From Planctomycetes bacterium syqfu (GTDB lineage: Bacteria; Planctomycetota; Phycisphaerae; Phycisphaerales; Phycisphaeraceae): DNA of 64,000 nucleotides. The stretch spans positions 6,572,001 through 6,636,000 of the forward strand of contig CP087563.1 of NCBI GenBank assembly GCA_020974905.1, written 5' to 3'. The notes beneath the pieces were generated by a model. The model had not been told where the DNA came from. It searched no databases and saw only the letters and a list, made by a program, of their open reading frames with translations. Shown here one piece after another: positions 37,553-58,887 of the stretch (position 1 is the stretch's first letter; each line of letters starts with the position of its first letter). The position numbers and the translations under genes were made by a program.

Positions 37553-37717
37553 TTAACCACAGATGAACACAGATACACACAGATGAGAAACCAGACTTTG
37601 AGCACCAGATGTCAATCTGGTGCAGGTCACTTGATCGAATACACGACCTGCACCGCATTGACATGCGGTGCTCAGATCAAATTGTTCTTGCCTTTATCTG
37701 TGTGCATCTGTGGTTAA
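37553..37717. repeat. Nested inverted repeat, ACAGAT family copy 1
   Basis: Outer arms: TTAACCACAGATGAACACAG (37553 on) against TTATCTGTGTGCATCTGTGG (to 37717). Inner arms 37600-37628 and 37645-37673 pair with each other, and each also folds by itself (ACCAGAtgtcaATCTGGT and ACCGCAttgacATGCGGT). The same outer arms recur at 50061-50267 around a different core. Confidence 0.8.
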
Positions 37718-45286: not shown

Positions 45287-46254
45287 TCTTGCTTGGTGGC
45301 TTCGTCGTTTTGAGTTTCTGGCGTGTCGGATGTTTCCTGGTCCGTGTCAGTTGATTCGGGTTGATCTTCCGATGGCGGTTGTGCTTTGTCTACCTGAGCT
45401 GAGGCATCTGCTTGCTCGGTTGTCACTTCATCTGATTCCGTTGCTGGTGTCTGCTGCTCAGTGTCCTGTTCCTGGGCGTCATCCTGTTTGTCGGAGACTG
45501 CCTGGCCGTCTTCAGCCAGTTCATCCTTGGCCGGGATCAGGGCGCGAGGCTTTGGCGGTCGGAGTTCGCCAGCATTGGGCAGGTCTTTAAGCGATGCCAA
45601 ACCAAAGACTTCCAGGAACTGTTTGGTCGTGCCATACAGCATCGGTCGCCCGATTTCCTCTGCACGTCCGACGATTTTGACCAAGTGACGTTCCATGAGA
45701 CTGCGCACGGTTTCGCCACTGGAAACACCGCGAATCGCCTCAATCTCGGCACGCAGGATCGGCTGCTTGTAGGCGATAATGGCCAGTGTTTCCATGCCAG
45801 CAGCGGTGAGTTTGTTGCTCTGGCGCGATTTATGCAGATTCGCCAGCACCTGTGCATACTTGGGCAAAGTCACAATCTGATACCCGCCAGCAAGCTGTTC
45901 GATGCGGAAACTGCGGTTGGATTCGTCGTAAACCTTGTTGAGTTGGTCGATGGCATCTTTGATAGGCTTGCCTGCAACACCACCGAGAATCTCAGTGAGT
46001 TTAGCTACACTGATCGCACGGTCCGTGGTCATCAGAGCCGCTTCCACGCGCAGATCCAGATCCTCTGGAACCGGGACTTCTTTCTTCGGAGCTGCGGACT
46101 TTTTCTCGTCAGCTTCCGGGGCTTCCGGGGTTTCCGCGGGCGTGGATTGGGATTTAGACGCCTCCTGTTCCGGCAACTCTTGGGGCTGTTCGGGCACGTC
46201 TGCGTCCTGAACTTCCGAGACTTCCGGGGAGGAGGGCGGAGTTTGTTCTGTCAT
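45283..46254 (-). CDS. scpB: Segregation and condensation protein B
   Basis: 323 residues, longer than the usual 180-200 because of acidic, Pro/Glu/Gln-rich tails on both sides (about 1-65 and 235-323). The core has LRVEAALMTTDRAISVAKLTEIL and METLAIIAYKQPILRAEIEAIRGVSSGETVRSLMERHLV, with GRPMLYGTTKQFLEVFGL, the two winged-helix domains of ScpB. ScpB is the kite subunit of the SMC-ScpAB condensin that organises the chromosome. scpA is not in the window. It heads the envelope operon, an unusual pairing. Confidence 0.92.
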   Translation of the reverse strand: MTEQTPPSSPEVSEVQDADVPEQPQELPEQEASKSQSTPAETPEAPEADEKKSAAPKKEVPVPEDLDLRVEAALMTTDRAISVAKLTEILGGVAGKPIKDAIDQLNKVYDESNRSFRIEQLAGGYQIVTLPKYAQVLANLHKSRQSNKLTAAGMETLAIIAYKQPILRAEIEAIRGVSSGETVRSLMERHLVKIVGRAEEIGRPMLYGTTKQFLEVFGLASLKDLPNAGELRPPKPRALIPAKDELAEDGQAVSDKQDDAQEQDTEQQTPATESDEVTTEQADASAQVDKAQPPSEDQPESTDTDQETSDTPETQNDEATKQE

Positions 46255-48611: not shown

Positions 48612-50027
48612 TCAATTCAAAAATTCCAATGCGGCTTCAATGCGCTCTACTGCGACATATCGACCGGATCGGGACTTTTTCTTTGCAACTTTGGGACCAA
48701 TAATGTGAGAAAAGCCGAGTTTTTCTGCTTCGGAGAGTCTTTGATCAAGGTGCTGGACGTGCCTGATCTCCCCGCCGAGACCCACTTCACCGATGACACA
48801 GACGTTGCCATCGGAGATACCCACCTGCCGATTCTGGAAGGCTCCGGCAATGGCCATGGCGATGGCTAAGTCTGCTGCGGGTTCTGCGACTTTCAGGCCA
48901 CCGACCACGCTGGCAAAGATATCCTGGTCGGCTAATCGCAATCCGCCACGCTTCTCCAACACCGCGATGAGCATCGCCAAACGGGATGAATCAAGCCCGC
49001 TGGACTTGCGTTTGGCCGACCCCAGAAAACCAGTTGCAGTCAGCGCTTGAATCTCCACCATCAGACACCGTGAGCCTTGCAACACAGGGCAGACCACGCT
49101 CCCCGCCTGGGGCTTGTACTCGGCAGCGAGTAGTCCGGTACCGTCAGCGACTTCGACAAGGCCTTCTTCGCGCATCTCAAACAAGCCGACTTCAAGCGTG
49201 GTGCCGAAGCGGTTTTTAATGCCACGGATAATGCGGTGCGAGTGATAGCGATCACCTTCGAAATACAGCACGGTGTCGACCATGTGTTCAAGCAGTCGCG
49301 GGCCAGCAAGTTTACCTTCCTTGGTGACATGGCCAACGAGAACGACACAACACCCCTGAGCCTTGGCAAGGTACACCAGTTCCAGGCAGCATGTCCGAAG
49401 CTGACTGATGGAACCCGGTGCCGCTGCAAGGTCGGATTTGTAGATCATCTGGACCGAGTCAATGATCACCACCGCGGGTTGGGTTTTACGGATTTGCTCT
49501 GCGATACGCGCCAGGTTGGTGTCCGCCAGAATCAGCAGGTGGTCGGCTTTTTTGCTGTCCACACCCAGACGTTCAGCACGCATCCGAAGCTGTTGGGCAG
49601 ATTCTTCACTGGTGACGTAAAGCACGGTTTGGCCGCTGCGATTAAGCTTGTCTGCTGCCTGTAATAACAATGTCGATTTACCGATTCCCGGGTCACCGCC
49701 AAGCAGGATCGCACAACCGGGAACCAGACCCCCGGGCAGTGATTTGCCTTCGATATCCCGGCCACCCAGCACGCGATCCAGTTCACCGATGCCCGTGGGG
49801 ATGCGCGCGATCGGGGCGCGGTCAGCATCCTGTTTCACAATTTCCGACAGTGGCAGGGCAGCCGTACTCACCGGGCTCTGACTTTGTGCGGTGCCACGGT
49901 GCGTGTCCTTGGAATGGACGATTTCTTCCAGCGAGTTCCACGCACCACAATCAGGGCATTTACCTAACCACTTGGGATGCATCGAACCACAGGAACTGCA
50001 GACGAATTGTTTGGTTGCTTTGGCCAT
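48612..50027 (-). CDS. radA: DNA repair protein RadA
   Basis: 471 residues. N-terminal C4 zinc finger CSSCGSMHPKWLGKCPDCG, RecA-like ATPase with Walker A GGDPGIGKSTLL and Walker B VVIIDSVQ, the RadA-specific KNRFG motif (IKNRFGTTLEVG), and a C-terminal Lon-protease-like domain (FASVVGGLKVAEPAADLAIAMA). RadA is a DnaB-like helicase that promotes branch migration during recombination. A nested palindromic repeat separates it from moaB upstream. Confidence 0.97.
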   Translation of the reverse strand: MAKATKQFVCSSCGSMHPKWLGKCPDCGAWNSLEEIVHSKDTHRGTAQSQSPVSTAALPLSEIVKQDADRAPIARIPTGIGELDRVLGGRDIEGKSLPGGLVPGCAILLGGDPGIGKSTLLLQAADKLNRSGQTVLYVTSEESAQQLRMRAERLGVDSKKADHLLILADTNLARIAEQIRKTQPAVVIIDSVQMIYKSDLAAAPGSISQLRTCCLELVYLAKAQGCCVVLVGHVTKEGKLAGPRLLEHMVDTVLYFEGDRYHSHRIIRGIKNRFGTTLEVGLFEMREEGLVEVADGTGLLAAEYKPQAGSVVCPVLQGSRCLMVEIQALTATGFLGSAKRKSSGLDSSRLAMLIAVLEKRGGLRLADQDIFASVVGGLKVAEPAADLAIAMAIAGAFQNRQVGISDGNVCVIGEVGLGGEIRHVQHLDQRLSEAEKLGFSHIIGPKVAKKKSRSGRYVAVERIEAALEFLN

Positions 50028-50060
50028 AGGCTTGTTTTGAGTCTCTCGTTTTAAGGCAGT

Positions 50061-50267
50061 TTAACCACAGATAAACACAGATGCACACAGATCAAAGCAG
50101 AAAGACATTGCCTCACGCCCGCTTCGCTCAAGACGCCAAGACGCGAAGTTTTTAAGACAAGATTTAATGGCTTTGTCTCTGTCTTGGCGTCTTGAGCGAA
50201 GCGGGCGTGAGTTTGTATTAAATTCAATGTCTTGAATCTGTGTTCATCTGTGTGTATCTGTGGCTAA
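50061..50267. repeat. Nested inverted repeat, ACAGAT family copy 2
   Basis: Outer arms: TTAACCACAGATAAACACAG (50061 on) and CATCTGTGTGTATCTGTGG (to 50267). Inside, 50112-50142 and 50181-50211 are perfectly complementary over 31 bp (CTCACGCCCGCTTCGCTCAA start). The outer arms match the copy at 37553-37717; the inner palindrome does not. Confidence 0.9.
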
Positions 50268-50294
50268 ATGGGTTCGGAACGTTGTGCTTAGACA

Positions 50295-50801
50295 TTACCG
50301 TTTACGTTCCCACACCAGGTGACTCAACTCGGGCACGATGAGTTTCTGCATGGCCAGGTTCACCGCGTTTTTCGAGCCAGGCATCGTGAAGATGAACGTG
50401 TCCCCAGCCAGACCTGCCATCGCTCGGCTGAGCATTGCAGCGGATTTGACCTGCTGGTAACTGAGCACCCGAAAGAGTTCGCCAAAGCCCGGCAAGGGTT
50501 TGGTGATCATCCTACGGACCACTTCAATCGTGCTGTCACGTCGGGCGATCCCCGTGCCCCCTGTGGTCAGAATCACCTGCACTTCGTCGTCTTCGATCCA
50601 GTTATGCAGTGTCGAACCGATATGCGTCACCTCATCGCGAACCAAAGCCCGGTCGACGATGTGATGCCCGGCTTCTTCCACGAGTTTGGCAATCAGATGG
50701 CCACTGCTGTCCGTATCCAGTGTGCGGGTGTCACTGATGGTCAAGATCGCGCAATTTGCTTTGACTTCTTTTGCCATATCACGGTGTTCTGTCGTCGACA
50801 T
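50295..50801 (-). CDS. moaB: Molybdopterin adenylyltransferase/MoaB-type protein
   Basis: 168 residues from ATG 50801 (ATG 50777 also possible). AILTISDTRTLDTDSSG opens the MoCF-BD fold; LTTGGTGIARRDSTIEVVRRM is the molybdopterin-binding signature, and FTMPGSKNAVNLAM the C-terminal loop. MoaB/MogA proteins adenylate molybdopterin before metal insertion. No other moco gene is nearby. Confidence 0.92.
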   Translation of the reverse strand: MSTTEHRDMAKEVKANCAILTISDTRTLDTDSSGHLIAKLVEEAGHHIVDRALVRDEVTHIGSTLHNWIEDDEVQVILTTGGTGIARRDSTIEVVRRMITKPLPGFGELFRVLSYQQVKSAAMLSRAMAGLAGDTFIFTMPGSKNAVNLAMQKLIVPELSHLVWERKR

Positions 50802-50972
50802 CTTGTTATACTCGCTCTCTACGCCCACACTTGAGTAAAATCACTCCGATGTTGGGCAGATATTCGGGGCATCCAGCCGGACTTTGACTGCATGACATGC
50901 AACCTTAAAGTCGGGTTCGGAGTACCGATATGCTACCGCAATCCACACGCCATCGGGAATTGAGTTGTTCGC

Positions 50973-58047: not shown

Positions 58048-58220
58048 GATCCCAGGCTTCGCGTTGCTCAACTTTAGGCTTGAGGGGTTTGAATCACAAG
58101 GCATACGATGGGATAGATTATATCTCAAGCCCAAAGCTGAGCGAAGCTTGGGATAATAGATGGTTTGTTGTATACGGCTGGCTATCCCAGTCTTCGCTTC
58201 GCTCAGACTTGGGCTTGGGG
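58048..58220. repeat. REP cluster left of the RAYT gene
   Basis: Three REP units in alternating orientation: 58048-58090 (inverted, decayed), 58121-58155 (CTCAAGCCCAAAGCTGAGCG, direct) and 58184-58220 (inverted). Each folds around AGCTGAGCGAAGCTTGGG-type arms. Two related units lie at 58781-58887. Confidence 0.85.
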
Positions 58221-58247: not shown

Positions 58248-58754
58248 TCATGTCCAATCGCCTGTTGATGCGTGTTCGAGAATGTAATGAAAAACTTTCT
58301 GCTGATGTTGGCGGTCCTGTATCAGAATCGGTTTGCCACCACGGGCCCAGATGCTGCCAGCAAGCTCGTTGCGAACAGCGTGTGATGCTGCCTGTTTGAG
58401 TTTGGCTGCAAAGTTTTGAGCATGCTCATATTGATTGAGGTATTGGACCAGCAGATGGGCGTGACTCGATCCGACGCTGATGGCAAGGACCTGCGTGTCG
58501 GTTTGGATGCATTTGGAATGTAACCGTTGGCCGAGGGTTGGAAGCAGATGATCGGGAATGATGATCGCGTTTTTGAGTTGAGATTCTTGATGATCGTATA
58601 AGCGTTGGTGTTCGCCGTCAGGGGGTAAATTTTTGTAATCACCATTGCTGTGGATGCGATGATTTCGTGATCGAAAGCCACGTGGATCGCCGTGTAACCA
58701 GGAGCCTTTGGTGTGAAGGATCAGATGCCACCATGCGTGACCCGGATTGGGCAT
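58248..58754 (-). CDS. REP-associated tyrosine transposase (RAYT, Y1/IS200-like)
   Basis: 168 residues from ATG 58754, with GGAG 7 nt upstream; the open frame extends 30 residues further but that stretch overlaps a REP unit. HTKGSWLHGDPRGFRSR is the RAYT signature, VGSSHAHLLVQY holds the HUH metal motif (His-Ala-His) and VFHYILEH the likely catalytic Tyr. RAYTs are domesticated single-strand transposases that cut REP hairpins. REPs on both sides in inverted pairs fit this role exactly. Confidence 0.9.
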   Translation of the reverse strand: MPNPGHAWWHLILHTKGSWLHGDPRGFRSRNHRIHSNGDYKNLPPDGEHQRLYDHQESQLKNAIIIPDHLLPTLGQRLHSKCIQTDTQVLAISVGSSHAHLLVQYLNQYEHAQNFAAKLKQAASHAVRNELAGSIWARGGKPILIQDRQHQQKVFHYILEHASTGDWT

Positions 58755-58780
58755 GGGTGTTTCTCCGGTTGATTGAACGT

Positions 58781-58887
58781 CGGCGCTTCGCTTCTCAGCC
58801 ATGGGCTTGAGGGGTTTGGGAGCGACAATTACGTTATGGATCATTATATCTCAAGCCCAAAGCTGAGCGAAGCGAAGCTTGGGATAT
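58781..58887. repeat. REP pair right of the RAYT gene
   Basis: An inverted unit at 58781-58819 and a direct unit at 58847-58886 (CTCAAGCCCAAAGCTGAGCG then AAGCGAAGCTTGGG). The direct unit matches the one at 58121 apart from an extra GCGAA. Confidence 0.85.

Follow-up and report, generated by a model that had tools for sequence, protein, structure and literature searches.

The intergenic region between radA (48612-50027, minus strand) and a mog-like gene (50295-50828, minus strand), both named from their translations, raises the question of what kind of element places a perfect palindrome inside a second one. In the window, which is the whole 64-kb stretch of DNA analysed here, this slot (50028-50294) is largely taken up by nested repeats of two families, A and B. 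The outer arms belong to family A and lie at 50060-50097 on the plus strand, where three CACAGAT words follow each other at a 10-base spacing, and at 50231-50268 on the minus strand; they are 38 nt long and 87% complementary. The inner arms belong to family B (CTCACGCCCGCTTCGCTCAAGACGC...) and occupy 50112-50142 (plus) and 50181-50211 (minus). They measure 31 nt, are 100% complementary, and enclose a 38-nt spacer (50143-50180) at the position where full-length B elements carry a gene. The first-pass annotation had described a perfect 31-bp inverted repeat inside a second inverted repeat, and these coordinates bear it out; by our own arithmetic, no such close perfect 31-bp inverted repeat is expected by chance in 64 kb.

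Elsewhere in the genome, both types of arm surround a gene. Within one A element (6164639-6165093) lies an ORF with a G-x-x-E-x-x-Y motif, and the complete A and B elements alike consist of inverted arms around a single GxxExxY ORF of ~120-125 codons. The left A arm of the radA-mog site is identical at 28 of 32 bases to the A arm at GxxExxY gene 6164682, and its right A arm matches the other arm of the complete A element at 29 of 32 bases. Likewise, the left B arm (50112-50148) shares 34 of 37 bases with the B arm beside GxxExxY gene 7228304, and the right B arm shares 29 of 31 bases with the other arm of the full-length B element. The inner B repeat is therefore of the same kind as the outer A repeat, since each brackets a GxxExxY gene elsewhere in the genome. 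We consider it probable that the radA-mog site is a gene-less B mini-element nested in a gene-less A mini-element, both being relatives of complete GxxExxY elements.

The A- and B-armed proteins match the TIGR04256 profile with 142.7 and 135.8 bits, respectively, and PF13366, a profile of the PD-(D/E)XK superfamily, with 140.5 and 134.8 bits. In 43 aligned proteins, D, K, and Q are present in all and E in 98%; we take D, E-x-K, and Q to be residues of the PD-(D/E)XK superfamily type. To our knowledge, GxxExxY is a common family with no known role. The literature found, which includes few subscription papers, mentions GxxExxY only in passing and draws no link to inverted repeats. A sequence-profile search returned no solved relative (one match, E = 0.32), and a single-sequence structure model of a viral GxxExxY relative, with a mean pLDDT of 46.5, was too poor to search with. 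We infer both the nuclease activity of GxxExxY and the mobility of the elements. The B-armed ORF has no in-frame ATG, GTG, or TTG upstream, and at loci L302 and L304 of two related genomes (G001, contig 89, and G003, contig 40), it is the CACAGAG arm that encodes the predicted N-terminus of the protein, NHRGTETQRD.

The association between arms and gene extends well beyond this genome. Inverted arms flank 55 of 58 GxxExxY genes in 37 genomes, as compared to 1 of 164 shifted controls, when arms are required within 220 bp on both sides and at a score of at least 26 bits. A TIGR04256 profile search of eight genomes found 28 genes in seven of them, and 26 of these were armed at this threshold, L317 and L319 being without arms; in 23 of the 26 armed genes, counted from printed rows, both arms lie at most 60 bp from the profile match. 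The first set of shifted controls reached 26 bits in 0 of 55 cases, with a maximum of 22.9 bits. In a wider draw, the family was present in 70 of 149 genomes of the phylum, and 30 loci, one per genome and the best matches among these 70 genomes, were taken for a second arm test, with the arm window extended 25 bases into the gene. Arms of at least 26 bits were found at 29 of the 30 loci in these 30 further planctomycete genomes (the exception was L347), and controls reached 26 bits in 1 of 109 cases. The arms lie at most 60 bp away on both sides at 13 of the 29 armed loci and further out at the rest, and a few are weak (e.g., L354 at 28 bits). The word expression fits 20 of the 30, and several others show related or different words by eye.

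The four GxxExxY genes of the genome of the window (G000) bear A arms (46 nt, 98%), B arms (39 nt, 90%), J arms, and M arms, respectively. In G003, elements corresponding to the complete J and M ones lie between similar flanks, as judged by eye, which means that complete copies can be old residents. A TIGR04256 search found no A-armed gene in G001 or G003. Manual reading found no K or I arms at any of the 58 GxxExxY loci, and these two word families thus have no gene here. Genome G027 contains 23 A-arm matches, yet its two GxxExxY genes bear other arms. Outside the phylum, clear arms were present in three of eight plasmid records (Bacteroides, Sphingomonas, and Bernardetia), and the GxxExxY genes of the other five were without clear arms; for the Gemmatirosa plasmid, the best of three matching places was examined. 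A search of viral contigs gave no relative from one sequence and one from an alignment; the gene on this one contig is armed with an unrelated word, CGGAATAAA. A phage search gave two records of one haloarchaeal virus. It is worth mentioning that the GxxExxY gene on a Bacteroides finegoldii plasmid (L360, 1492-1866) has CACAGAG-type arms and lies directly downstream of radA; that the nested element of the window is also a neighbour of radA is probably a coincidence.

Families A and B belong to a set of palindromes in which each arm consists of about three copies of a 9-10-base word, the words being CACAGAT, CACAGAG, CGCCAAG, CACGAAG, and CGCAAAG. Family F has CACAGAG/CGCAGAG arms, J has CGCGAAGG/CACGAAG arms, M has CGCCAAG arms, I has GGGACTAG/GGGATTAG arms, and K has GGATTTCG arms. 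Identical criteria gave 201 palindromes in a 946-kb sample of G000, partly chosen for A arms, and 42 in a Markov resample. The sample contains 45 A pairs and 26 single A arms, and 42 of the 45 pairs span 61-208 bp between the outer words. Their interiors are empty or hold a B repeat, a REPIN-like core (C, D, or E), or a longer stretch. Two A pairs have long interiors, which contain, respectively, a small ORF that is not GxxExxY-like (1543901-1544595) and three different palindromes (1142271-1142720).

A second A element in the window has outer arms at 37553-37575 (plus) and 37695-37717 (minus), which are 23 nt long and 96% matched, around a REPIN-like D core with arms at 37599-37628 (plus) and 37645-37674 (minus), 30 nt long and 87% matched. 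The earlier description of like outer arms around a different inner palindrome at this place is thus confirmed. Two outcomes named there as refuting the idea can be set aside. The outer arms are not low-complexity sequence, as ACCACAGATNNACACAGAT has 56 exact copies in the genome against 0 for its reversed control, and inner and outer parts are not fixed together, since A may be coreless or hold any of the cores B, C, D, and E, and B is also found without A.

The other arm words behave likewise, with empty, cored, or long interiors, in 40 stretches of 20 kb sampled systematically from G000, where word arms are present in 39 of 444 intergenic regions. By manual reading, this sample has 20 complete word-arm pairs, of which 8 surround a palindrome from a different family and one surrounds a GxxExxY gene; rough arithmetic on 93 kb of intergenic DNA gives about one nested pair from chance overlap. 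A elements lie between tandem, convergent, and divergent genes in 39, 14, and 2 cases, respectively, against a background of 261, 89, and 94. They avoid divergent promoters, as expected of tolerated parasites or terminators alike. Called ORFs contain 16 of 71 A elements. By eye, the A and B arms have no internal hairpin, and the cores C and D have one.

Some short motifs were followed separately. The tag AAGRCA/TGYCTT is found at many A, B, and CGCAGAG edges in G000, and CAAGGCA was counted 422 times against 178 in the partly chosen sample. As an insertion target common to all families it was rejected, being often absent, by eye, at the CACAGAG elements of G001. A DNA-uptake-like role of CACAGAT was also dropped, because the hexamer ACAGAT shows no excess in the window (38 copies, 34.3 expected). 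The 9-mer CCCCGGAAG is strongly over-represented both in the systematic 800 kb (52 against 3.8 expected) and in the window (9 against 0.4; positions include 305, 4929, 24814, 46113-46221, and 59005). Both coding and intergenic DNA contain it, and so do A words, at ACAG(A)^T, and C cores. At G000 position 4531342, an A arm in G001 carries it as a 9-base insertion, and this insertion is absent from G000.

Comparison with relatives shows what happens to individual sites. Going by the relatives of its radA gene, G000 belongs to Phycisphaerales. G001, its closest relative here, is collinear with the window over ~31 kb at 88-91% DNA identity. A segment of the window with a weak RAYT-like Y1 ORF, flanked by palindromes at ~58124-58219 and 58796-58873 (CTCAAGCCCAAAGCTGAGCGAAGC...), is absent from G001 at the collinear place. 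In the radA-mog slot, G001 has a coreless CACAGAG palindrome, and G002 and G003 have no clear element; at the 37.5-kb site, G001 has CACAGAG-type arms with a C core. Anchors placed 47 further sites in G001, including 36 A sites; for 9 of the 56 anchors, G001 offered no usable place. Anchors were assigned to sites, and slots sorted, by manual reading. Word arms are present at 29 of the 36 orthologous A sites, and at 21 of these they belong to another word family. The 36 sites carry A (8), CACAGAG/CGCAGAG (15), K (3), I (1), M (1), or J (1) arms in G001, one has a B core without A, and six have no word arm, including two with only a REPIN-like palindrome and one near a contig end. Among the 29 armed sites, 23 show an inverted pair and six a single orientation (sites 6, 22, 27, 28, 39, and 54). 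In G003, where 16 sites were taken from a larger number that had matched, the 13 A sites carry CACAGAG (6), J (1), or no arms (6).

Since word arms occupy 29 of 36 sites in G001, as compared to 39 of 444 intergenic regions in G000, the place persists beyond chance while the word differs; the excess is about nine times, with the background taken from G000. CACAGAG elements are present in both G001 and G003 at sites 8, 16, 19, and 20, and at site 16, the loops and flanks of the two genomes look homologous by eye. Family A is therefore likely a newcomer in G000, and the pattern points to A having replaced an older CACAGAG element at the shared sites. This agrees with the numbers of A-arm matches, which are 56 in G000, where the A-armed gene is found, and 10 in G001, 6 in G003, and 2 in G002, which are without it. 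CACAGAG/CGCAGAG arms number 151 in G001 and 165 in G003, both of which have such a gene, and 95 in G000 and 2 in G002, which do not; G002 is incomplete and has no GxxExxY match. Family abundance in these four genomes of the genus, three of which are incomplete drafts, agrees with the gene found.

At the 13 slots shared between A and CACAGAG elements, neither the loops (p = 0.17) nor the 40-bp right flanks (p = 0.67) are significantly alike; the left flanks are (p = 0.002). In-place conversion of arms was dropped as an explanation, given these loops. The 11 non-A sites show the same family in G001 at seven places: J at G000 positions 3931345 and 5589763 (one arm), F at 4850733, 6125986, and 6133885, I at 5025102, and E at 5211930. 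Of the others, F arms with a G core at 4655845 face M in G001, K arms with a C core at 4837009 have, according to the scan, only C left in G001, a partial N lies opposite M at 4289901, and one site ends at a G001 contig end. The slot of 5589763 in G001 (L274, contig 84) contains a mixed element whose left arm has J words and whose right arm has CGCAGAG-like ones.

These comparisons bear on the proposal of the first-pass annotation that the outer arms are a container for exchangeable cores. Cores do differ within kept arms at three sites. At 4819460, where G000 has A arms around a D core, the A arms of the G001 ortholog hold K and C. At 5252769, an A element with an E core in G000, G001 has an extra C core flanked by a repeat of the inner edge of the arm. 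At 4412334, CACAGAG arms contain a REPIN-like core in G003 and none in G001, as judged by eye. However, the outer arms themselves differ in G001 at the radA-mog site, at the 37.5-kb site, and at 21 of the 36 further A sites. The proposal is thus partly right: cores are exchangeable, but so are the arms, and the persisting thing is the site. The repeats around the extra C core at 5252769 look as they would after an insertion, and this sole insertion with flanking repeats concerns a REPIN-like core. For word-arm elements, no transposition event, target-site rule, or target duplication was seen at the 36 A sites compared in G001, and no clean empty site was seen there, the intergenic DNA of G000 and G001 having diverged too far.

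The word-arm elements share several features with known systems. They resemble MITEs in being short, gene-less, and intergenic, with inverted ends and many copies, and in having, for A and B, a complete relative in the same genome with a gene between the same ends, whose product may mobilise them. They differ from MITEs in that the gene of the complete element is for a GxxExxY protein (PD-(D/E)XK superfamily) and not for a DDE or HUH transposase, that the arms are word triplets, and that no target duplication is apparent. We regard them as a kind of MITE with a nuclease-superfamily gene as the likely partner. In PD-(D/E)XK homing endonucleases, a small nuclease-fold protein is the only gene of the element, and a predicted nuclease-fold protein is likewise the sole gene of a word-arm element; unlike homing endonuclease elements, word-arm elements have palindromic arms, many non-allelic copies, and gene-less minis. 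Among the published systems found, the REPs and TIRtrons come closest, in which Y1 transposases are flanked by inverted repeats (PMC3733652). REPINs with RAYTs and TIRtrons with TIRYTs are similar to our elements in that palindromic repeats between genes go together with an enzyme gene of their own, which has similar repeats on either side. The inner cores C, D, E, G, and H fit the REPIN kind, whereas the gene with the word-arm families is not a Y1 tyrosine transposase and no GTAG or CGTC tag was noticed by eye in the arms.

This similarity suggests another reading, in which A and B are REP- or TIR-type repeats that RAYT- or TIRYT-like Y1 (HUH) transposases mobilise and the GxxExxY genes are passengers. 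We consider it unlikely. The genome does contain six Y1_Tnp matches, each with its own flanking palindromic repeats (manual reading), and one of them, a weak one, lies in the window (ORF 58248-58844, minus strand; 22.4 bits, cut-off 23), flanked by the H palindrome type that is also the core inside CGCAGAG arms at 4194296 and 3413101. For the REPIN-like cores (C, D, E, G, and H), the Y1 reading works well, but a Y1_Tnp gene flanked by the same repeat holds for the H-type core and not for A or B arms. Word arms surround none of the six Y1 genes (manual reading), as compared to 55 of 58 GxxExxY loci with inverted arms, and A and B arms lack an internal hairpin by eye. Y1 transposases were therefore dropped as movers of A and B. 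Slightly less probable still is that the host retains the palindromes because they serve it, for example in terminating transcription, protecting mRNA 3' ends, or organising the chromosome, with a sequence free to drift or swap. Such a role would account for sites that are kept while words differ and for the avoidance of divergent promoters, although a parasite would be expected to avoid them as well. It leaves unexplained why the same word occurs at dozens of sites, differing by family, and why several types bracket a nuclease-family gene.

The strongest rival concerns the slot pattern only, namely that different families insert independently into permissive intergenic regions and do not interact. 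We regard such hot spots as possible but doubtful. Independent insertion keeps its weight because the loops and near right flanks at the 13 shared slots are not significantly alike, and it suits the K, J, M, and I elements, which are unlike A in sequence and lie at six A sites in G001. Against it stand the CACAGAG elements present in G001 and G003 at the same four sites, one of them homologous by eye, and the ninefold excess of coincidence over background.

A possible mechanism goes with the explanation we favour, that of gene-less relatives of complete GxxExxY elements. A cognate GxxExxY protein would recognise the arm word and act in trans, and the three word copies per arm might reflect several protein contacts. 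The protein would act on palindromes at intergenic sites, where host repair would copy the element in. Minis may have arisen by loss of the gene and spread via the nuclease and host repair, or via another helper, and cores would enter near the tip of an existing palindrome. An active family, presumably A in G000 and CACAGAG in its relatives, would take over the sites of other families. A farther-reaching reading, which we consider less likely than not, makes GxxExxY proteins the enzymes behind a widespread and so far nameless class of palindromic elements driven by nucleases. Each lineage would carry its own word, and orthologous sites would keep a palindrome while the word changes between species because an active nuclease lets its word overwrite rivals at the same slots.

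If this is true, nesting as seen at the radA-mog site would be a by-product of word overwriting. Tying GxxExxY to intergenic word palindromes makes the function of this protein open to testing, and it offers an origin for such repeats, seen here in planctomycetes as well as on Bacteroidota and Pseudomonadota plasmids. If the exchange of slots is real, these would be selfish elements competing for the same chromosomal places.
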